From Candidatus Binatia bacterium (GTDB taxonomy: Bacteria; Desulfobacterota; Binatia; UBA12015), in assembly GCA_029243485.1 (NCBI GenBank), contig JAQWRY010000003.1, forward strand, positions 186,001 to 250,000: DNA of 64,000 nt, given 5' to 3'. Below are positions 30,184 to 41,332 of this stretch, one piece after another (the first letter of the stretch is position 1; every line of letters starts with the position of its first letter). The notes beneath the pieces are model-generated. The model was not told the DNA's origin and searched no databases. It was given only the letters and a program-made list of their open reading frames with translations. The translations under genes and the position numbers were made by a program.

Positions 30184-32436
30184 GTGAGGCGCGCCCTTCG
30201 AATCCTCGGCTGGACCGCGTTGGGTTTTCTTGCGGTCGCTGTGCTGCTCGTGCTCGTTTCGTGGCCGATCTCAGAAGGGGTGTTCGGCGAACTGTATGAC
30301 CGCGGTGTCGTCACCACGCAGCCGCAGCCATCGTCGGCCGTCGAGGCGAAGGCCGCTCGGCAGGCTGGTCTCGCTCCGGAGGGAGAGGCGCAGGTCCTCT
30401 TCGGGGATCTGCACGTGCATACGACCTTCTCCGCGGATGCCTTCGTGTTTTCGCTGCCCATGTTTCAGGGGGAGGGCGTGCATCCCCCCGCGGACGCCTG
30501 CGACTTCGCGCGGTTCTGCGCGGAACTCGACTTCTTCAGCTTGAACGACCACGCCGAGTTCATCACTCCTCGGCAATGGACGGAGACGAAGGCGTCGGTT
30601 CGCGAGTGCAACGCGGTGGCCGGCGACGCCGGGGATCCTGACCTCGTCGCTTTTCTGGGCTGGGAGTGGACGCAGTCTGCGAACCCCTTGAAGGCGGATG
30701 GCCCGCACTACGGGCACAAGAACGTGATCCTTCTCGGCACCGAGGACGACGAGGTGCCCGTCCGTCCGATCGGCGCCGGAAGCGGTGGCCTGTTCTCGGC
30801 TGACGTGCCGGGTGCCGCGTGGGCCGCGTTGCGTGTCGGCATCACCGTACTCGACATGCCGGCGATCGGCCCCTACCTCGACCTCAATCGCTGGGTGCGC
30901 GAAGTCCGCGGCACCGAGGATTGCCCGGCGGGTGTTCCGGTCCGAGAGCTCTCGGAAGATTGCTTCGAGGGCGCCTCGAGCCCTGATCTCCTCTTCGCGA
31001 AGCTGGATGATTGGGGGTACGAGAGCCTCGTCATTCCCCACGGCACGGCCTGGGGCATTCATGCGCCTAGGGGCTCGTCGTTGGCGCTTCAGCTCGAGCC
31101 GGGCATGCAGGATGAGGCGCGGCAGCGGCTGTTCGAAGTCTACTCCGGCCACGGGTCGTCGGAAGTCTATCGCGAACTTCTCGAGTTCTCCGTCGACGAG
31201 AATGGAGAGCGAGCGTGCGAACCGCCGAGCGGTGGCTTCCTGCCGTGTTGCTGGCGCGCGGGGGAGATCATCCTGAAACGCTGCGGGAAGGAAGGCCTAC
31301 CCGAAGCCGAGTGCACCGCCCGCGCGGAACTCGCGCGTGAGTACATGGCGGAGGCGAGCGGGCCGGGGCGCTACAACGTCGTGCCAGGCACGAACGCCGC
31401 GGATTGGCTCGAATGCGGGCAACTCCCCGAAGGCTTCCTTCCGGCGTACGAGTACCGTCCGCAGATGAGCGCACAGTACGGCCTGGCGGCGCGGGGCTTC
31501 CGACCGGACGGAGGGGTCTCTGCATTCCGCTACGGGCTGATCGGCTCCAGTGACAACCACAAGGCGCGAGCGGGCTCCAGCTACAAGGAGATTGGTCGCA
31601 AGGCATTCGGCGATGCCTACGGTCTGAACGACGCGTGGACGGATCTCCTGAGCGGCCCCCAGGAGCCGTCCTCGCAGCCGGTCTCTCCCGGGCCGGGGCT
31701 CGGTGGTGCCGCCGATCGCAACGCCTCGTTCTATTACACGGCCGGTCTGGTTGCGGTACACGCGGAGGGCCGAGGGCGCGAGGAGATCTGGAACGCGTTG
31801 GACGCGCGGCACGCGTACGGAACCTCGGGAGATCGGATCCTCTTGTGGTTCGACCTGCTGAACGGTCCGATGGAAGCGTCGGTGCCGATGGGTTCGGAAG
31901 TCACGATGGGCGAGACGCCGCGCTTCCGGGTGCGGGCGCTCGGTGCCTTCGAGCAGCTGCCGGGCTGTCCCGACTACACCAAGGAACGTCTCTCACCCGA
32001 GCGGCTGAAACGGCTGTGCTTGAACGAGTGCTACCACCCGAGCGACGTCCGAAAGCGCATCAACCGAATCGACGTCGTGCGGATCCGCCCGCAGACGTAC
32101 GAGGGTGAGCCGGTGGGTCCGCTGATTGAAGATCCGTGGCGCAGCTTCGAGTGCGCGGGCGGTCATGACGGCTGCACGGTGGAGTTCGACGATCCCGAGT
32201 TCGTGCCCGGGCAGCGAGAGTACGTGTATTACGTGCGGGCGCTGCAGGAGCCGTCGCCCGCGGTGAACGGCGACCCGATGCGGTGCGAGCGCGATGAGGA
32301 GGGTGCCTGTGTTCGGTCGAACCCGTGCCCGGCGTCCGGCCCCGACTTCGATCCCGAAGACGAGTGCCTCTCGATGGTGCAGGAGCGCGCCTGGTCCTCG
32401 CCGATCTTCGTTCTCCCGGCGACGGGAGCACGGTGA
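30184..32436 (+). CDS. DUF3604 (PHP-like) exported protein
   Basis: A 750-residue protein of the DUF3604 family. An N-terminal signal anchor (LGWTALGFLAVAVLLVLVSW) places the rest outside the inner membrane. The domain begins FGDLHVHTTFSADAF, continues FFSLNDHAEFI and YGHKNVILLG, and closes with GLIGSSDNHKARAGS. This His/Asp pattern is like that of PHP-type metal phosphoesterases, so a metal hydrolase is likely; the substrate is unknown. Many Cys (for example PPSGGFLPCCWRAG and RLCLNECYHPSD) point to disulfides and so to an oxidising compartment. GTG start at 30184 with GGAG 10 bases upstream. Its stop overlaps the next gene's GTG (GTGA), so the two proteins are co-translated. Confidence 0.88.
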   Translation: MRRALRILGWTALGFLAVAVLLVLVSWPISEGVFGELYDRGVVTTQPQPSSAVEAKAARQAGLAPEGEAQVLFGDLHVHTTFSADAFVFSLPMFQGEGVHPPADACDFARFCAELDFFSLNDHAEFITPRQWTETKASVRECNAVAGDAGDPDLVAFLGWEWTQSANPLKADGPHYGHKNVILLGTEDDEVPVRPIGAGSGGLFSADVPGAAWAALRVGITVLDMPAIGPYLDLNRWVREVRGTEDCPAGVPVRELSEDCFEGASSPDLLFAKLDDWGYESLVIPHGTAWGIHAPRGSSLALQLEPGMQDEARQRLFEVYSGHGSSEVYRELLEFSVDENGERACEPPSGGFLPCCWRAGEIILKRCGKEGLPEAECTARAELAREYMAEASGPGRYNVVPGTNAADWLECGQLPEGFLPAYEYRPQMSAQYGLAARGFRPDGGVSAFRYGLIGSSDNHKARAGSSYKEIGRKAFGDAYGLNDAWTDLLSGPQEPSSQPVSPGPGLGGAADRNASFYYTAGLVAVHAEGRGREEIWNALDARHAYGTSGDRILLWFDLLNGPMEASVPMGSEVTMGETPRFRVRALGAFEQLPGCPDYTKERLSPERLKRLCLNECYHPSDVRKRINRIDVVRIRPQTYEGEPVGPLIEDPWRSFECAGGHDGCTVEFDDPEFVPGQREYVYYVRALQEPSPAVNGDPMRCERDEEGACVRSNPCPASGPDFDPEDECLSMVQERAWSSPIFVLPATGAR

Positions 32437-33428
32437 GTTCGCCTCCGCCATCGTCGGGGCGCCGGGTGGGTTCCCGGATCGCGCTCGTCGTCTTCGGAGT
32501 TTTGCTCGCCCTGGTTTTGCTCGAGGGGGTGCTGCGCGTCGCGGGGATTGTGTCGTCGCGTGGGAGGACGGTTGCCGGCGCCGATGGGGAAGCGATCATC
32601 GTCTTGTGTGTCGGGGACTCGCACACCTGGGGGCGCGGTGAGGGCGTCCCGGCGCGTCTGGCTGAGCGTCTGGCCGAGCGCTCCGGGCAGTACCGGGTGA
32701 TCAACCTGGGCGTCCCGGGGACCAACACGGCGCAACATCGAAAGCGCTTCGATTCGTATCTGGAAAAATTCGATCCGGCCCTCATCGTGTTCTGGGGCGG
32801 CTTGAACAACGTCTGGAATCAGACCGGCTCGGAGGCCTGGGCGGATGCAGGTCACGAGGAGGCTCCGTTCTGGCGTCGTCTCCTCGACGAGATCCGGATC
32901 CTTCGTTTCGTACGCGTATGGCGCCACCAGGCGGAATTGAACGAGATCCTCGCGGCCGGTGACGGGTACGTCGTGCCGGAAACCTCCGAAGAGCGAACGC
33001 GGTTTCGCAAGGTGCATGCTCGGAAGCTGGGTGGCTCCGAAGACGTCTTCGTAAATACGCGCGACGAGACCGGTGGTGAGTTGGACTCCGAACTCGTGGC
33101 TCGGGTCACGGCGGGAGATCTCGCGTGGATGATCAAACGCGCTCGGGAGCGCGGCGTCGCCGTGCTCCCGATCACCTATCCGAACGAGCGGTCGTACTAC
33201 GGCGGCGTAAACGTCGGCATCCGTTGGGCTGCCAGCGATACCGGTGTGCCGCTGGTCGACGGAACGAGTGCGAAGGTTCGTTTGGAGGAGCGGGGATCGG
33301 ACGACGGCGGCCCCCCCCCCCGGCTCTTCGACAAGACCGCTCATCCCACGCAGGAACTCTACGATGAGATCGCGGATCTCACCGTCGAGACCATCGACCA
33401 GAACGAGCTCCTGCCGGCTGGGCGCTAG
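32433..33428 (+). CDS. Membrane-anchored SGNH/GDSL-like hydrolase
   Basis: 331 residues: a Ser/Pro/Arg-rich N-terminus, one membrane helix (IALVVFGVLLALVLLEGVL), then an SGNH-hydrolase fold. The block I Ser is in CVGDSHTWGRG; block II Gly may be in LGVPGTNTAQHRKRF; the block III Asn is in VFWGGLNNVWN, in place of the usual GxND; the block V Asp/His pair is in FDKTAHPT. Such anchored enzymes often remove or transfer acetyl groups on surface sugars. The GTG at 32433 overlaps the DUF3604 stop. A run of 11 C lies just before the block V Asp/His codons and could slip. The exact substrate is unknown. Confidence 0.8.
   Translation: MSSPPPSSGRRVGSRIALVVFGVLLALVLLEGVLRVAGIVSSRGRTVAGADGEAIIVLCVGDSHTWGRGEGVPARLAERLAERSGQYRVINLGVPGTNTAQHRKRFDSYLEKFDPALIVFWGGLNNVWNQTGSEAWADAGHEEAPFWRRLLDEIRILRFVRVWRHQAELNEILAAGDGYVVPETSEERTRFRKVHARKLGGSEDVFVNTRDETGGELDSELVARVTAGDLAWMIKRARERGVAVLPITYPNERSYYGGVNVGIRWAASDTGVPLVDGTSAKVRLEERGSDDGGPPPRLFDKTAHPTQELYDEIADLTVETIDQNELLPAGR
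33311..33321 (+). repeat. Homopolymer run of 11 C inside the SGNH gene
   Basis: Eleven C in a row, coding Gly-Pro-Pro-Pro-Arg in the current frame. Gain or loss of one base would cut off the block V Asp/His. It is the longest single-base run I noticed in the window. Confidence 0.8.
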
Positions 33429-33570: not shown

Positions 33571-35796
33571 TCACGCGGTCGAGCGCGAAGGGGTCGGTAG
33601 CTCGATGACCTTCGCGCCGCGGCTCGCGAGGCGGTCGCGCAGGCCCGCGTCGAACGTGAAGTAGAGGATCTGCCAGCCTTCCTCCGCGAGCTCCGAGAAC
33701 GCCGTTGCGAGAGCTTCCCGCCGGCTGGCGTCCGAGGTGAGGAATGCATCGTCGAGGGCCAGGAAGCCCGGTTCGCCAAGAAGCCGCCGGACCAGCGCGA
33801 CGCGCACGGCGAGTGCCAGCTGGTCCTTCGCGCCGCGACTCAGCGCATCGGTTCCGAAGCGGGTGCCGTCGTCGCGTTCCACCGCGAGGCCGCCGTTCTC
33901 GTCGAGAACGACGGCGACGTATCGCCCGCCGGTGAGCCGAGCCAGATAGGACCCTGCGGCACCGGGCCCGTTCCCGAGTGCTTCACGAAGCGGCCGGTCG
34001 ATGTCCTGTGCGAGCTCCCGAAGGGCTTGCAGGCCGAGTTGTCCGCCGCGAACCTCGGCGTCGATCTGCTCGATTCCTTGGGCCAGGCGTTCGCGCTCGG
34101 CCTCGGCGGCACCGAGGTCGGGAAGGCTGATGGCACTGAGTGCGCGGTCGCGGCGGTCGCCGATCTCCCCCTTTAACGCGAGGAGGCGCTCGTCGAAGCC
34201 CTCGAGCTCCCGTTCGAGGGCGGCCAGCTCGTGCGCGTCCGGGGCGACCTCGGGGTCCGGCACGGTGAGAGCTTCCATACGGCGTTCGAGCGGAAGGTCG
34301 GCATTCCCGTCCCCGAGCAGTCCGGACACCGTGCGGAGTGCCTCCTCGAGCGTCGAAGCGATCTGCGTGCGCTGCTTCAGCTTTTCTTCGAGCTGATCGA
34401 TGCTCGCGAGACGTACGCGTTCGCGGACGTCGGCCACCATTCGCTGGGTTTCTTCAAGCCGACGATGTCTCTCGGCCTCGGTGCGCTCGGCCGTCCGAAC
34501 GGCTTTGTCCGCGATGCGCTTCTGGTCGACGGCGGCGCCGCGCTCTGCCTCGGCCCGTTCGGCGTTGCCGCTGATGCTGCCGAGCTGTGTGGTGCACTCG
34601 TCGAGGTTTCCGGCCTTTGCGAGCACAGCGCCGCACGCGGCGACGGCCTGGTCTTCGAGTGTTTTCGCGGAACGGTTGCGGCTAGTGCCGAAGATCGAGA
34701 GGCCTGCGCCGAGGAGGCCGAGGACGGCCGAAGCCCCCGCGAGAAGGCCGAGAGGGACGCCGTCTGCGTTCGCGTCTCGCGCCGTCGCCTCGACGCCGAC
34801 GCCGACGGAGAACAGAAGGAGCAGGACTCCGGCGATGGCGAGCGGCGTGCGCCAGAGGGTCCAGAGTCGGGCACTGGAACGCTCGTTGCGCGCGCGTTCG
34901 ACGAGTCCGTCGAGATCGCGCCGGGTACAATCCGCGGTTTGCGTGCGGGCCTTGTCGGCCGCGATCTCCCGCTTTCGAACCTCTTCGGCAGAAAGAGTCT
35001 GTTCGTCGCGCAGGCGATGCGCCTCGTGCTCCCCGGACTTGGCGACGACAGCAGCTTCGCGCACGGCCACGACCGCTTCCCGCCAGGCGGTGAGGTCGTC
35101 TTCTCCGTATCGCTCGAGTTCCTGGAGGCCCTTCCGGGAGTTCTCGACGGTGTCGACCGCACGTTGCGCGAGCCGGAAGCGCTCGAAGCGCTCGGCAGCG
35201 CGCAGCTTTTCGACGCGATTGCGCGCCGCGCCGCGTCCGCGCGTGAGTTGATGGGATTCCTCGAGCAGGCGGCTGATTGCTGGAAGGTCGGCCAGGAAGC
35301 CCTCGAGTCGAGAGAGTCGCTCGGCGAGCCGTTGTCGCTCGTCCTGCCGAGCTTCGCGCGGAGTTCCGTTCGGGCCGAGGGATGCGGCGCTTCGCACCCG
35401 TTCCGACACCCGGGCGAGGTCGATGCCGATGAGTCGGCCGCGGATCGCGTTCAGCCAGCCACGGCCGCCCTCGAGAGAGGCATCGGCGTCGCGTACGATG
35501 AACAGGCGGGTGAGGGAAGGATGGTCGCTAAGCAAGTCCACCACCGGGCCGCCATCTTCGGGCGCGAGCAAGAGGTCGATTTCGCCCTGAAAGCCCGGGC
35601 CGTCGCGCAGGTTCTCGAGCATCTTGCGATTGCCGGGGCGCACGCGCTCGCGGAGCGCATGGGTAAGAGCGTCGATGCACGAGGTCTTGCCGGCCTCGTT
35701 CTGTCCGTGCACCACGGTGACTTCGCCTGGCACGAGGACGAGGTCGCGTAGGGGGCCGAAGTCGCGGATGGAGAGCCGCTCGATGCGCACACTCAC
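33571..35796 (-). CDS. SbcC/YhaN-like coiled-coil ATPase with membrane hairpin
   Basis: A 741-residue Rad50-like ABC ATPase. The N-terminal half-site starts SVRIERLSIRDFGPLRDL with Walker A HGQNEAGKTSC (about 32-42). Two long coiled coils flank a middle segment (about 312-370) with two hydrophobic helices (TPLAIAGVLLLLFSVGVGVE and GLLAGASAVLGLLGAGLSIF). The C-terminal half has the signature-like LSRGAKDQLALAVRVALVRR and Walker B FLALDDAFLTSD. Rad50 and SbcC have a zinc hook at mid-coil; here a membrane hairpin takes that place and no CxxC is present. The GTG at 35796 overlaps the stop of the phosphoesterase gene, as in sbcDC and yhaON. Likely role: DNA end processing near the membrane. Confidence 0.85.
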   Translation of the reverse strand: MSVRIERLSIRDFGPLRDLVLVPGEVTVVHGQNEAGKTSCIDALTHALRERVRPGNRKMLENLRDGPGFQGEIDLLLAPEDGGPVVDLLSDHPSLTRLFIVRDADASLEGGRGWLNAIRGRLIGIDLARVSERVRSAASLGPNGTPREARQDERQRLAERLSRLEGFLADLPAISRLLEESHQLTRGRGAARNRVEKLRAAERFERFRLAQRAVDTVENSRKGLQELERYGEDDLTAWREAVVAVREAAVVAKSGEHEAHRLRDEQTLSAEEVRKREIAADKARTQTADCTRRDLDGLVERARNERSSARLWTLWRTPLAIAGVLLLLFSVGVGVEATARDANADGVPLGLLAGASAVLGLLGAGLSIFGTSRNRSAKTLEDQAVAACGAVLAKAGNLDECTTQLGSISGNAERAEAERGAAVDQKRIADKAVRTAERTEAERHRRLEETQRMVADVRERVRLASIDQLEEKLKQRTQIASTLEEALRTVSGLLGDGNADLPLERRMEALTVPDPEVAPDAHELAALERELEGFDERLLALKGEIGDRRDRALSAISLPDLGAAEAERERLAQGIEQIDAEVRGGQLGLQALRELAQDIDRPLREALGNGPGAAGSYLARLTGGRYVAVVLDENGGLAVERDDGTRFGTDALSRGAKDQLALAVRVALVRRLLGEPGFLALDDAFLTSDASRREALATAFSELAEEGWQILYFTFDAGLRDRLASRGAKVIELPTPSRSTA

Positions 35797-36932
35797 GGCA
35801 TCGCCTCGAGAAACGCGTCGAGGCCCATCCGGAGCGCCGCTTGCAGGGCGGTCGGGTCGTCGACTCCTTCGCTGCGCGCGCACGCTTCGACCCGCTCGAC
35901 GAACTCGCCGATGATCGGAAGATCGGCGAGGCTGGGGTACGAGGCAGTCTCGAGCTCGAGAATCGCGAGTGAGGCATCGGGGTCGTCCGGGTCCGTGGAG
36001 ACGGTCGACGGGGTCGGACTGGCCTCGCCGCCGAAGGCGCGTGCCAGGGCACGCTCGGCGGCGTCGCGAAGGTCGGGTTCCGCGGCGAGGGAGAGCCCGG
36101 TCAGCTGCGCGAGAACGCGCGCCCCCGGTTTCTTTCGCGCGAGAGCTTCTCGTGCGAGCGCCTCGATCGCCTTGGTTTCTCCGCCCGGGAGGCAGTTCAC
36201 GCTGACGTGCTCGTAAAAGGGCGTCGCGATTGGGACGAACTCGTGGGCCAACACGCCCGCCGTGGCCTCGAAGTCCACGAGGAGCGCGCCCCGCGGACCG
36301 TTTTCCCGGCGGCTCGTCGCGACCGGGGAGCCGGCGTACGCGACCAGTCGCTCGCCATCGCGGTGGATCAGGTTCCCGCCGGAATGCAGGTGCCCGAGGG
36401 CTGCGTAGCAGGAGCGCTTCAGGAGATCGGCGAGGAAGATCGGCATGTAAGAGCCGTCTTCCCCTTCGCCGGCGAACGCGTTCTGGACGCCGTCGATGAT
36501 GGTGCCATGTGCCATCAAGATCGTGTGCCGCGGATCTCCGACGATGCCCGTAAGGCATTCCGCGAGGGCTTTCCCGTGCTGGTAGGGGATTGCGACGATC
36601 TCGAGTCCGCACACCCTCGCTCGGGAGGACGGTGTGCCAGCGAGGACGATGGCGTTGGCGCCGTAGTCGGCGTCTGGCCCGTAGCACTCGGCATCATCGT
36701 TTCCCGGAACGAAGACGACGGGCCGAGGTGCGACGCTCTCTACGAGCTGCCTGACAAAGGCGCGTCCGCCGACGGCATCCGAGGCCCGATCGAACAGGTC
36801 GCCACAAATCAGCATGGCATCCGCGCTCCGGGCGCGGGCCAGCTCGAACACCAAGGACAGCGCCCGGCCTCGCTCGGGTCGGTCCTTACGAAGGTGCACG
36901 TCAGATGTCTGGAGCAATCGAACGCGAGCCAT
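35793..36932 (-). CDS. SbcD/YhaO-like metallophosphoesterase nuclease
   Basis: A 379-residue Mre11/SbcD-type phosphoesterase, predicted partner of the coiled-coil ATPase. Metal motifs: TSDVHL (Asp-11, His-13), CGDLFD (Asp-45), then PGNDD (77-80), AHGT, and GHLHSGG. Where most SbcD/Mre11 proteins have GNHD, His is replaced by Asp, removing the residue that helps protonate the leaving group in Mre11. A C-terminal helical part (about 270-379) probably holds the ATPase-coil contact. It overlaps the ATPase gene by 4 bases and follows the LolB-like lipoprotein by 49 bases. Family sure; nuclease activity not certain because of the substitution. Confidence 0.88.
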   Translation of the reverse strand: MARVRLLQTSDVHLRKDRPERGRALSLVFELARARSADAMLICGDLFDRASDAVGGRAFVRQLVESVAPRPVVFVPGNDDAECYGPDADYGANAIVLAGTPSSRARVCGLEIVAIPYQHGKALAECLTGIVGDPRHTILMAHGTIIDGVQNAFAGEGEDGSYMPIFLADLLKRSCYAALGHLHSGGNLIHRDGERLVAYAGSPVATSRRENGPRGALLVDFEATAGVLAHEFVPIATPFYEHVSVNCLPGGETKAIEALAREALARKKPGARVLAQLTGLSLAAEPDLRDAAERALARAFGGEASPTPSTVSTDPDDPDASLAILELETASYPSLADLPIIGEFVERVEACARSEGVDDPTALQAALRMGLDAFLEAMP

Positions 36933-36981: not shown

Positions 36982-37884
36982 TTAGGGCCCGACGCTCGTC
37001 ACGATCCGTGGGCCCAAGGGAAGATCCTTCATCCCGCTGGGGGTGACTAGTTGGAAGCTCGAGGCCTGGAGTTCGGGGTTCGCTTCGAGCTCGCGGTACG
37101 TCACCGTGACCTTCGATCCGGGTGCCGTCACCTCGATTCGCGTCGGGAGCACGTGGCCACCAAAATCCTGGTGTTCGCCAAACCGTGCTCGGAGCTGCAC
37201 GGTCCCCTTCGCGTCGATCCGCTCGAAGGAGACCGGGACGGCAACGCCTCCGGCGACCGGAGCGCGGGCGAATCCGACGAGCACCGTCTCGCCGGCGGAA
37301 GCCGCGCTCGGCGCGTGGAGGAACACCTCGGCCCCTTCGCCGCCGGGCCGGGTTTCGGCGGTGCCCCCGTCGTGGGAGGAAGAGGCCCACGCCAGGCGGC
37401 CCTCGATCGCGGGGACCGGTGGCTGGCCCAGCAGAATGCGTGTGATGTCTTCGGGTGTCGCCTCGACACCGGTAGCGCTCGCGACCGTTTCCGGGGTGGC
37501 CTGGCCGCGATAGATCGTGCCCTCGTCCGGCGCGAGGACGGCAAGGCTGCTGCCGTCGCTCACCGCCGAGTAGCTCACGCCGAAGGGGGAGAGGGAGTCG
37601 AGACGAAACGCCCCTGGCGCCGAGGCGAGAACGGCCTGCGACGTGCTGAAGCTCTCTTCGTCTTCCCCGGGCAACGGCTGAAACGTGATCCGTACCTTGG
37701 CGATCCCGCGGAGGCTTCGAACGTCGGTGCGCTGTTCGTCGAGCACCTCGATCAGGGACGCGACCGAAGAGCCCTCGAGCCGGCCGTACACCTGAGAGGC
37801 GGACGACCCCCCGAGGGTGCAGCCCCCAAGCAGCAGCGGAGTGCAGAGGAACCACAGAGCAAGCTTGTCGCCGTTTGCCTTCAG
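36982..37884 (-). CDS. LolB-like lipoprotein, apparent CTG start
   Basis: A 300-residue lipoprotein whose mature domain resembles LolB/DUF4292 outer-membrane proteins: SLRGIAKVRITFQPLPG, a beta-sheet run with FRLDSLSPFGVSYSAV, and ATPEDITRILLGQPP. LolB family members take lipoproteins from LolA into the outer membrane. The frame has no ATG, GTG or TTG before GTG 37791, which would leave no export signal, yet a perfect lipoprotein signal (KLALWFLCTPLLLGGC) lies just upstream in frame. It is reached from a CTG at 37884 that overlaps the TPR-gene stop as CTGA. The neighbouring genes use this same 4-base overlap, so CTG initiation is my best reading. A sequencing error is the alternative. Confidence 0.75.
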   Translation of the reverse strand: MKANGDKLALWFLCTPLLLGGCTLGGSSASQVYGRLEGSSVASLIEVLDEQRTDVRSLRGIAKVRITFQPLPGEDEESFSTSQAVLASAPGAFRLDSLSPFGVSYSAVSDGSSLAVLAPDEGTIYRGQATPETVASATGVEATPEDITRILLGQPPVPAIEGRLAWASSSHDGGTAETRPGGEGAEVFLHAPSAASAGETVLVGFARAPVAGGVAVPVSFERIDAKGTVQLRARFGEHQDFGGHVLPTRIEVTAPGSKVTVTYRELEANPELQASSFQLVTPSGMKDLPLGPRIVTSVGP

Positions 37885-39620
37885 AGCGAGGGCTCGCCGG
37901 CGCTTCCAGCCCGCTCGACCGCGCGGACCTTGGCCTCGATACGGCGTCGTTGGTCGGAGTCGTCCGAGGCGCTCAGCGCCTCGCGGTAGAGCTGCAGGGC
38001 CTCGAGTTCGCGTCCGACCTTCCGATAGGCGTCGGCGAGGTGCTCGTTGATCGTCGGGTCGTCGCCGGTGAGTTCCACTGCACGTTCCAACTGCTCGACC
38101 GCCTGCCGATACTTGCCTCGTTGGAACAGGACCCAGCCGAGGCTGTCGATGTAGAACCCGTCGTTCGGGTCGATGGCGAGGGCCCGCTTCACCAGGCGCT
38201 GGGCTTCCTCGAGTTGCTGTCCCGATTCGGCGAGGGAGTATCCGAGGTAGTTCAACGCGGCGGCATTTTTCGGGTTGAGCTCTATCGCCTCGCGCATTTG
38301 TTCGAGTGCGGCCGGGCGGTTGCCCGCTTCCTGGTAGAGCGCGCCCAGCATGAAGTGGTAGCGATCATTGTTGGGGCTCTTGTCGACGAGCCGCTCGGCG
38401 AGCTCGACCGCTTGAGGCAGATCCTCACGATCGCGCTGGAGCGCGATCAGGAACTCGACGATGCCGGCCGACTCGGGATGCGTGCTGAGCGCCTCGTTGG
38501 CGTAGTCCACGGCGGTATCTAGATCGTCTTCACGCTGGGCCAGATAAGCCAGCTGGAGACGCGATTCCGCGTACAGCGGTGAGTTGGTCTGAACCGAGAG
38601 CAGGGTCTCGGTCGCACGATCGAGCTCGCCGGTCTCGGTGTAGACGACGCCGAGGTAGTAGGCGACGGAATGATCCTCTGGCTTGGCGCGCTGTACCAGC
38701 GTGAGTTCGGTCGCCGCGCTCTCGAAGTCGCCCTTTTCAAGGTAGATGAGCCCGATCTTCAGCCGGGTGTCGGTCGGGTCGGCTTCGATGCGTTCGAGCT
38801 GGCGGAACTCTTCGAGTGCTTCGTCGTAGCGCTTCTGTCCGGCCAGCATGCCGGCCAGGCGACGTCGCGCGACTTCATTGCCGGGGTCGAGCGCGAGCAC
38901 GCGGCGGTACAGGAGGTTGGCCTCTTGCGCGCTGCCGCGCATCTCTTCGACGAGTGCGAGGTCGGTGAGGATCAGGACGGACCGGGAGTTGTAACGCAGG
39001 GCTTCTTTGAACGCGTCGCGCGCTTCGTTGAGACGACCCGCTCCGGCGTGCAGGCGGGCGAGGTAGTAGTAGCCCATGACGGAGCCGGGGTCGGCTTCGA
39101 CGAGTCGCTCGAGCACGATCCGGGCTTTCTCGGGCTCGCCCCATTTCGTGTAGAGGGCGGAGAGCAGGAGGTAGGCCTCGGCCGTGTCGGAGCTCTGGCC
39201 GATGACCTCACGGTACTCTTCGGCGGCGTCCTTCTCGCGGCCTAGGCCGACGAGCGTGCCGGCGAGAAGCATGCGGGTCGGTACGTCGTCGGGACGCTTC
39301 GAGACGGCGTACGATGCTTCTTCGTGCGCCCGCTCGAGGTCGCCGCTGCGCACGTAGAGATTCGCGAGTCGCGCGTGGAGTCGCGGTTCTTCGGGGTCCA
39401 GGCGGGCGGCGCGTTGGTAGGCGGTGAGAGCCGTCTCGTAGTCGCCATTGCGCATGGCGACCTCGCCTTTGAGGAATGCGCCGAGCGCCAGATCGCGCGG
39501 CGACAAGCCCAGGTCGGCTGATGGGCGCGAAGCCCCAGAACTCCGGCTCCCGGAGCCGAGCGGAGTGCAGGCTCCGAGCGATACCGCCAGCAGGAGCGAC
39601 AGAATGACACACCGCTTCAT
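37881..39620 (-). CDS. TPR-repeat lipoprotein
   Basis: A 579-residue lipoprotein (signal MKRCVILSLLLAVSLGAC) filled with about a dozen tetratricopeptide repeats, each about 34 residues, such as YETALTAYQRAARLDPEEP and GKYRQAVEQLERAVELTGDD. TPR solenoids bind proteins. Family-like TPR lipoproteins next to a LolB-like gene are common in deltaproteobacteria, so a scaffold in outer-membrane assembly is plausible. ATG 39620 is taken because it gives a clean signal peptide; a GTG 21 bases earlier is possible. Stop overlaps the CTG of the lipoprotein gene. Confidence 0.9.
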   Translation of the reverse strand: MKRCVILSLLLAVSLGACTPLGSGSRSSGASRPSADLGLSPRDLALGAFLKGEVAMRNGDYETALTAYQRAARLDPEEPRLHARLANLYVRSGDLERAHEEASYAVSKRPDDVPTRMLLAGTLVGLGREKDAAEEYREVIGQSSDTAEAYLLLSALYTKWGEPEKARIVLERLVEADPGSVMGYYYLARLHAGAGRLNEARDAFKEALRYNSRSVLILTDLALVEEMRGSAQEANLLYRRVLALDPGNEVARRRLAGMLAGQKRYDEALEEFRQLERIEADPTDTRLKIGLIYLEKGDFESAATELTLVQRAKPEDHSVAYYLGVVYTETGELDRATETLLSVQTNSPLYAESRLQLAYLAQREDDLDTAVDYANEALSTHPESAGIVEFLIALQRDREDLPQAVELAERLVDKSPNNDRYHFMLGALYQEAGNRPAALEQMREAIELNPKNAAALNYLGYSLAESGQQLEEAQRLVKRALAIDPNDGFYIDSLGWVLFQRGKYRQAVEQLERAVELTGDDPTINEHLADAYRKVGRELEALQLYREALSASDDSDQRRRIEAKVRAVERAGSAGEPSL

Positions 39621-39726
39621 GCGCTCATCCACAGCTACCACGCTGGCCCACCTCCGGCAAAATAAAGCGTCCCTCCGTGCGGTGGCCTCGATGGTTCGTC
39701 TTGGTCTCCGGCGGGCCGGGGAGCTT

Positions 39727-40081: not shown

Positions 40082-41332
40082 TCAGGACCCCTTGTCCCAG
40101 GCGGCTCGGAGGGTCTCCTCGTAGACGGTTGCGACGGGGACCCCGTGCTCGCGGCCTGCTCGGTGGCAGTCGGCGTACTCCGGAGTGATCCGCTCGTCGC
40201 CGCCCGGCACCTGAACGACCTTTACGTTGATTGCCCCGAACCGTGTTGACACCGTCCGGTTCTCGCGCGGGAGCATGAGTCGAGACACGGGGTGGGTTCG
40301 GACACCGATGGTCGACGTCTCGCGCAGGAGGATCCGGCCGAGGGCGTCGCCGTCGCTGGGCGAGGCGATCACGCGGATCAGGGTTCCCGGCCGACCGCGC
40401 TTCATCGTGATCGGGGCGAGCGATACGTCTCGTGCGCCGCCCTCGAAGAGCGCCTCCATCGCGGGCTCGAAGAGCTCGGGGTTCATGTCGTCGATGTTCG
40501 CCTCGAGCACCATCATCTCGTCCCGTTCGAGGTCCATGCCCGGCGCTACGGCGGACGGTGCCGCGTCCGGGACGGTGTCGGCGAGGATGATCCGCAGGAG
40601 GTTCGGGCGGTCGGGCATCTCGCGATCCCCGGCGCCGTAGCCGCTCGCGATAGGTGCGAGCACGGGAGGTGGCTCGGGACGCGCGAGGGCGGCGATGATC
40701 GCGGCCCCGGTCGGCGTGACCAACTCGGCGGTTCCGTCCTCGAGGCGCGTGGGGAAGCCACGAAGGATCTCGACGGTCGCCGGCGCGGGAACCGGGATCA
40801 CGCCGTGTTGCGAACGGGTCATGCCGGAACCGAGGGGCAGCGGCGAGGAGTGGATTCGATCGATCCCGAAATGCTCGAGACAGATTGCCGCTCCGACGAT
40901 GTCGACGATGGCGTCGATCGCCCCGACCTCGTGAAAGCCCACGTCCTCGAGGGGCATGGCATGGATGCGTGCCTCCGCGACGGCGAGAACGTGGAACACC
41001 TTCTCGGCTCGCTCGCGCACGCGGGGTGTGAGCGCGCTCTTCGTGAGTAGCTCTCGTATGTCGCCGTAGGAGCGGTGCGTGTGGTGATGATCGTGGGAAT
41101 GGTCGTCGTGATGATGCCCGTGCTCGTGGAGCCCGGGGGCGTGGACGGTGAACTTCGTCGCCTGAATGCCGGAGCGGACGCGATGACCGACATCGAGCGT
41201 CACGTCGGCGAGACCGAGTGGTGCCAGGCCCTCTTCGAGAACGGAGAGCGGCATGCCGAGGTCGAGGAAGGCCCCGATGGTCATGTCTCCGGAGACGCCG
41301 GAGAAGGTGTCGAAGTAGGCGACTCGCATCAA
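40082..41332 (-). CDS. larC: Nickel-insertion protein LarC (pyridinium dithiocarboxylate nickel)
   Basis: A 416-residue protein of the LarC (DUF111) family, which inserts nickel into the pincer cofactor (NPN) with CTP. It begins MRVAYFDTFSGVSGDMTIGA. A His/Asp-rich loop (HEHGHHHDDHSHDHHHTH, about 70-88) probably holds nickel. The domain includes FHEVGAIDAIVDIVGAAICL, TPTGAAIIAAL and EANIDDMNPELFE. In Lactiplantibacillus the gene is split by a programmed frameshift; here it is one continuous frame. The user of the cofactor (LarA-type racemase) and LarE are not in the window. GGAGAGGA ribosome site before ATG 41332. It shares an operon with larB, with the ABC1 kinase gene between. Confidence 0.93.
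   Translation of the reverse strand: MMRVAYFDTFSGVSGDMTIGAFLDLGMPLSVLEEGLAPLGLADVTLDVGHRVRSGIQATKFTVHAPGLHEHGHHHDDHSHDHHHTHRSYGDIRELLTKSALTPRVRERAEKVFHVLAVAEARIHAMPLEDVGFHEVGAIDAIVDIVGAAICLEHFGIDRIHSSPLPLGSGMTRSQHGVIPVPAPATVEILRGFPTRLEDGTAELVTPTGAAIIAALARPEPPPVLAPIASGYGAGDREMPDRPNLLRIILADTVPDAAPSAVAPGMDLERDEMMVLEANIDDMNPELFEPAMEALFEGGARDVSLAPITMKRGRPGTLIRVIASPSDGDALGRILLRETSTIGVRTHPVSRLMLPRENRTVSTRFGAINVKVVQVPGGDERITPEYADCHRAGREHGVPVATVYEETLRAAWDKGS

Follow-up and report, generated by a model that had tools for sequence, protein, structure and literature searches.

How an Mre11-Rad50-like complex might work when its apex is rebuilt is the question raised by a gene pair of Candidatus Binatia bacterium. 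The Rad50 apex is thought to tether DNA ends, two complexes being joined there through zinc. The pair lies on contig JAQWRY010000003.1, within the stretch of 64,000 nucleotides that was analysed as a whole and is called here the window. A preliminary description of this DNA had proposed an Mre11/Rad50-like pair in which two hydrophobic helices occupy the middle of the ATPase coiled coil, at the place of the zinc hook, and in which the phosphoesterase has lost an active-site histidine.

Identity of the gene pair

The phosphoesterase (P0002) and the ATPase (P0001) are listed with their features in Table 1. P0002 matches the Pfam family Metallophos (4.2e-8) and the SbcD profile TIGR00619 (1.2e-8), the latter at 35 bits and under the cut-off of 77.65. 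P0001 matches AAA_23 (2.8e-8) and AAA_27 (2.1e-6, aligned to residues 4-47 only), and the Rad50 profile of NCBIfam matches it under that profile's cut-off. Among PDB chains, the solved structures closest by sequence are SbcD/Mre11 for the phosphoesterase and Rad50 for the ATPase. Both proteins were modelled with AlphaFold2 from the relatives' sequences collected in the present analysis. The phosphoesterase model (mean pLDDT 87.8) retrieved Mre11/SbcD structures in Foldseek with E about 1e-13, and the ATPase model (mean pLDDT 82.6, pTM 0.47) retrieved Rad50 and SMC proteins. The ATPase head carries the two Walker motifs (A and B) and the ABC signature around a long coil, and the GWQI of its C-terminal motif is invariant across 28 aligned ATPases. 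Profiles, PDB-chain matches and models together make the assignment of the pair as Mre11/Rad50-like a sound one. The gene coordinates, the reading frames and the 4-base GTGA overlap given in the preliminary description were reproduced exactly.

Table 1. Coordinates of the gene pair, its sequence features and the conserved upstream genes in the window
Feature	Position	Strand	Basis or remark
Mre11/SbcD-like phosphoesterase, 379 aa (P0002)	35793..36932	-	Pfam, NCBIfam, AlphaFold2, Foldseek
Rad50/SMC-like ATPase, 741 aa, GTG start (P0001)	33571..35796	-	Pfam, PDB chains, Foldseek
Overlap of phosphoesterase and ATPase genes, 4 bases, GTGA	35793..35796	-	
Phosphoesterase motif III, P-G-N-D-D, residues 76-80	36693..36707	-	
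Phosphoesterase codon 79, GAT	36696-36698	-	CAC (His) in two same-genus relatives
ATPase Walker A, GQNEAGKT, residues 31-38	35683..35706	-	
ATPase ABC signature LSRGAKDQ to Walker B LALDDAF, residues 652-685	33742..33843	-	
ATPase family motif EGWQI, residues 706-710	33667..33681	-	Alignment of 28 ATPases
ATPase apical hydrophobic helix 1, residues ~317-337	34786..34848	-	
ATPase apical hydrophobic helix 2, residues ~346-370	34687..34761	-	
Co-directional upstream gene, weak DUF4292 match below cut-off	36982..37791	-	Synteny kept in family
Co-directional upstream TPR protein	37881..39641	-	Synteny kept in family

A hydrophobic hairpin at the apex of the coil

The two most hydrophobic segments of P0001 lie at residues 319-337 and 351-369 (Kyte-Doolittle means 2.26 and 2.02), and CxxC is absent anywhere in the protein, likewise in its close relatives. 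The helices placed in mid-coil (about residues 312-370) by the preliminary description, where Rad50/SbcC carry the CxxC hook, are thus real features of the sequence. When the sequence of P0001 was shuffled, the hydrophobicity of the second segment was matched in about 10% of shuffles. Because such segments are not rare in shuffles, the hydrophobicity of P0001 alone is modest evidence, and the claim of a hairpin rests on conservation.

Both helices are present in all ten full-length ATPases of the window's family. The alignment of homologues that had been proposed as a check extends to 28 ATPases, from Clostridia to Nitrospirota, Chloroflexota and archaea, with identities of 17-22% at its far end. 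Throughout, the hairpin occupies the same apical place, at 43-47% of ATPase length, and in 27 of the 28 the two most hydrophobic segments of the whole protein are both apical; the exception (L120) has one strong apical segment. Twenty further loci from the phylum gave two apical hydrophobic segments in 15 cases, one in three and none in two; among relatives of other branches, L154, L155, L158, L160 and L161 lack one or both of the apical hydrophobic helices. As an internal control, canonical SbcC proteins of sister genomes have the CxxC hook and lack the hairpin. The long YhaN of sister genomes (about 1180 aa) has neither. Chance hydrophobicity, a question that one protein would not suffice to settle, is ruled out by the apical position and its conservation over the 28 relatives. 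As judged from these alignments, the hairpin is an old feature, general among the short Rad50-like ATPases of a broad family that have Mre11-like partners. The preliminary description was right that it is present; it is not peculiar to this locus, being found through bacteria and archaea. A second YhaN-like ATPase of about 800 aa, with Walker A GLNESGKS and a mid-coil hydrophobic hairpin, was observed in the same-genus genome G003 (L074:1748-4156).

Further properties of the segment bear on whether the hairpin enters the membrane. Lys/Arg counts in the 28 ATPases are 1-5 before the hairpin, 0-2 in its loop and 1-7 after it; by the positive-inside rule, such Lys/Arg-rich flanks and so Lys/Arg-poor a loop would put both coil arms in the cytoplasm. 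In the window's family, the helices are conserved to a coil-like degree (0.72 and 0.70) and the intervening loop scores 0.36. The AlphaFold2 model has helices at 316-336 and 349-391, where the two coil arms join, at the low confidence of the apex (pLDDT 54-73). Apical helices of this kind could instead stay out of the membrane as a soluble hydrophobic zipper that pairs two apices, a metal-free substitute for the hook. Apical pairing is indeed the hook's known task, and helix 2 in the window's family is Ala/Gly-rich and, on the octanol scale, marginally favourable or unfavourable. In distant relatives, however, both apical segments are mostly strongly hydrophobic, with octanol values up to 19, and they stand between charged flanks around a charge-poor loop, which makes the zipper rather improbable. 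Hydrophobicity, charge pattern and conservation instead suggest that the hairpin would insert into the membrane.

Loss of the motif III histidine in the phosphoesterase

The motif III residues of P0002 are N78, D79 and D80, and alignment to chain 6s85 (query 5-81 on 2-86) sets residue 79 opposite H84 of E. coli SbcD, which bears out the loss of the active-site His read earlier from PGNDD. The other metal-binding residues (D11, H13, D45, N78, H142, H181, H183) are intact. An alignment of residue 79 in homologues, likewise proposed earlier, showed that 46 of 49 readable relatives retain the His, and the three exceptions all come from the window's family. Three same-genus species have GNHD. Two genomes of one other genus of the family have GNAD, and two of another have GHDD, where motif I is altered as well (DLQM for DVHL) and its His also missing. 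A motif III insertion with the His still present (PGGG...GHDA) was seen in L154 and L160, which lack the hairpin.

The phosphoesterase tree nests the GNDD species among its GNHD congeners (support 100/99), and in it the GNAD and GHDD lineages part at an open fork; a second tree with fewer family rows joins these two lineages (94/77). Because the GNDD species is nested in a GNHD genus and the GNAD/GHDD lineages are separate, the alignments and trees require at least two loss events in the family, possibly three. Nearly all hairpin-bearing relatives keep GNHD, so the hairpin and the His loss are not one package: the former is old and the latter a local change, with separate histories.

That the nearest relatives carry GNHD had been named in advance as a possible sign of local error, and the species is represented here by a single genome, so that GNDD could be a sequencing or assembly error in it. 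Codon 79, however, differs at two bases from that of the two closest relatives compared (GAT versus CAC), so an error of one base would need a synonymous change too, and the His was also lost in other genera, each time in two genomes. The GNHD relatives were indeed found, but the error that they seemed to imply is improbable. Against the GNHD neighbours, dN/dS is about 0.11-0.14, and the two neighbours compared with each other give the same value; dS is close to saturation. Decay to a pseudogene is ruled out by this ratio together with the intact frames.

The consequence for catalysis can be read in two ways. The complex may be just as membrane-anchored and its nuclease fully working, with Asp 79 or a neighbour standing in for the His: all other metal-binding motifs of P0002 are intact, purifying selection is unchanged relative to the GNHD relatives, and LpxH, an enzyme of the same fold, has GNRD and works without this His. 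By analogy with such enzymes, cutting may persist. On the other side, the H84Q mutant of E. coli SbcD was used as a nuclease-deficient enzyme, its ATPase activity down only about 15% (PMC6265447), and a structure of P. furiosus Mre11 H85S in complex with branched DNA is among the Foldseek matches of the phosphoesterase. The varied replacements (D, A, HD for NH) also suggest relaxation and not one new chemistry, and the GHDD lineage lost the motif I His as well. A fully working nuclease is therefore unlikely, if far from negligible, and cutting by the GNDD enzyme of this species is probably impaired.

Distribution and gene neighbourhood

Each of the 14 genomes in the window's family carries the phosphoesterase, the relatives being 46-79% identical, and no comparably close relative was found in the other searched families of the class. 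A full or partial ATPase adjoins it in 13 of these genomes; in G006 the phosphoesterase contig ends, and an ATPase fragment lies on a different contig. The two genes mostly overlap or abut in the window's family, and they stand together also in distant bacteria and archaea: when 84,980 species genomes were scanned with the family profile, distant pairs turned up in Clostridia, Thermoanaerobacter, Nitrospiraceae, Anaerolineaceae, Caldithrix, Bacteroidales, WOR-3, Natronomonas, Thorarchaeota and Nanohaloarchaea. By these profile matches, hairpin-bearing pairs form a family that is widespread among bacteria and archaea and has been little studied. The family's pair and gene order were also seen in L112 (CAMBZJ010000015.1), labelled Klebsiella pneumoniae, a bin that is probably mislabelled.

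Upstream, the order of the TPR and DUF4292-like genes is constant in the window's family wherever contigs reach. An extra gene, by eye resembling an oligopeptide-binding lipoprotein, sits between the DUF4292-like and phosphoesterase genes in several genera (L036:1055-2893, L038:6654-8390, L043:7183-9066) and is missing from the window. Further upstream on the same strand, the gene at 40082-41332 has a His-rich stretch and by eye resembles a LarC-like nickel-insertion protein; at 30184-33428, a DUF3604 protein and a GDSL-like hydrolase are convergent with the pair. One scan of viral contigs found no phosphoesterase relatives, one search of plasmids no ATPase relatives, and no plasmid relatives of the distant hairpin ATPases were found. 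PADLOC matches cover mainly the ATP-binding core, and the mads_3 match covers both head lobes. A mobile or defence element was considered and rejected, given the absence of viral and plasmid relatives in these searches, the presence of the phosphoesterase in every family genome and the conserved gene order.

Relation to SbcCD, YhaO/YhaN and other coiled-coil ATPases

With Mre11-Rad50 and SbcCD the pair shares the paired genes, the Mre11-like phosphoesterase fold and a Rad50-type ABC head split by a long coil. Its ATPase differs in being short, in having no CxxC hook and in carrying the membrane-type hairpin at the apex; its phosphoesterase lacks the full catalytic motifs with GNH(D/E), and neither protein reaches the SbcD/SbcC profile cut-offs. 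With YhaO/YhaN (SbcEF of B. subtilis) it shares a phosphoesterase beside a Rad50-like ATPase without a hook. The sister-genome YhaN, however, is of the long type and has a whole AAA_27 domain and no hairpin, whereas the window's ATPase aligns with AAA_27 over its first residues only. The pair has instead the two apical hydrophobic helices, the GWQI motif near the C-terminus and the adjacent Mre11-like gene of the hairpin family. SMC, MukB, JetC/Wadjet and other Rad50-like proteins have the head-coil-apex architecture in common with the window's ATPase; at the apex, all these have a hinge or hook domain, not a membrane-type helix pair.

In a tree of 50 phosphoesterases, whose deeper branches are moderately supported and whose YhaO references were taken from sister genomes and from Sorangium rather than from Bacillus, the window's protein belongs to a 32-row group of hairpin partners (91/88) that is separate from an SbcD clade (100/99) and a YhaO clade (96/92). 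A few hairpin partners lie on the YhaO side of this tree, so the hairpin is not limited to one clade. The window's genome (97.5% complete) contains no SbcD, SbcC or long YhaN above cut-off or at full length, where the SbcC cut-off is a strict one, reached by one of 14 control genomes. Some sister genomes have one of SbcCD or YhaON alongside the hairpin pair, which is for this reason a separate system. That the pair is an ordinary SbcCD or YhaO/YhaN system, as the weak SbcD, Rad50 and AAA_27 profile matches could be taken to mean, is highly improbable in view of this coexistence, the SbcD score below cut-off, the missing hook and the position of the phosphoesterase outside both clades. The label of YhaO/YhaN relatives used in the preliminary description holds as a rough one; YhaN of sister genomes lacks the hairpin, and the YhaO partners form a separate clade.

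B. subtilis YhaN is probably annotated with membrane helices. Among searchable papers outside the subscription literature, none was found to describe a membrane hairpin for proteins of the Rad50 or YhaN kind. SbcE is YhaN of B. subtilis (Krishnamurthy et al. 2010, cited in PMC4205851 and PMC3896406), and the title of the 2010 paper, as cited in PMC4205851, connects it with double-strand break repair and competence. In B. pumilus, yhaO and yhaN are induced by peroxide together with SOS genes (PMC3896406). What is newly seen here is how broadly the apical hairpin is shared, and that one family has lost the catalytic His repeatedly.

A proposed membrane-anchored DNA clamp and its significance

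Taken as a whole, the evidence favours, with a probability of roughly 0.6, a membrane-anchored Mre11-Rad50-like DNA clamp or nuclease, which in this species probably cuts less well. ATP would join two ATPase protomers at their heads, where a dimer of the Mre11-like subunit would be bound. From the heads, antiparallel coiled coils of 150-165 residues per arm, ~23-25 nm long if straight (at 0.15 nm per residue), would reach the inner membrane, and each would end in the two-helix hairpin, an apical anchor replacing the zinc hook. With both ends of the ATPase in the cytoplasm, such a complex could keep hold of DNA ends, hairpins or blocked DNA near the membrane, or process them there; blocked ends, incoming DNA and segregating chromosomes are candidate substrates. 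Most members of the wider family have an intact-looking nuclease centre; this species and one or two other lineages of its family have lost the transition-state His of motif III. Because its catalytic His is gone, the GNDD complex of the window is expected to clamp rather than cut, binding DNA with little or altered cleavage. More speculatively, and with the odds against it, the pairs, spread through bacteria and archaea, may make up a separate class of Mre11-Rad50-like complexes that are anchored in the membrane, with a hairpin for a hook, in which a non-cutting DNA tether arose more than once in one bacterial family.

If the reading is correct, membrane helices at the apex would bring end processing to the membrane and give a natural means of testing the function of the apex. 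The loss of the His, with the ATPase, the hairpin and strong purifying selection retained (selection having been tested in the window's lineage), would likewise separate a clamping role from a cutting one.
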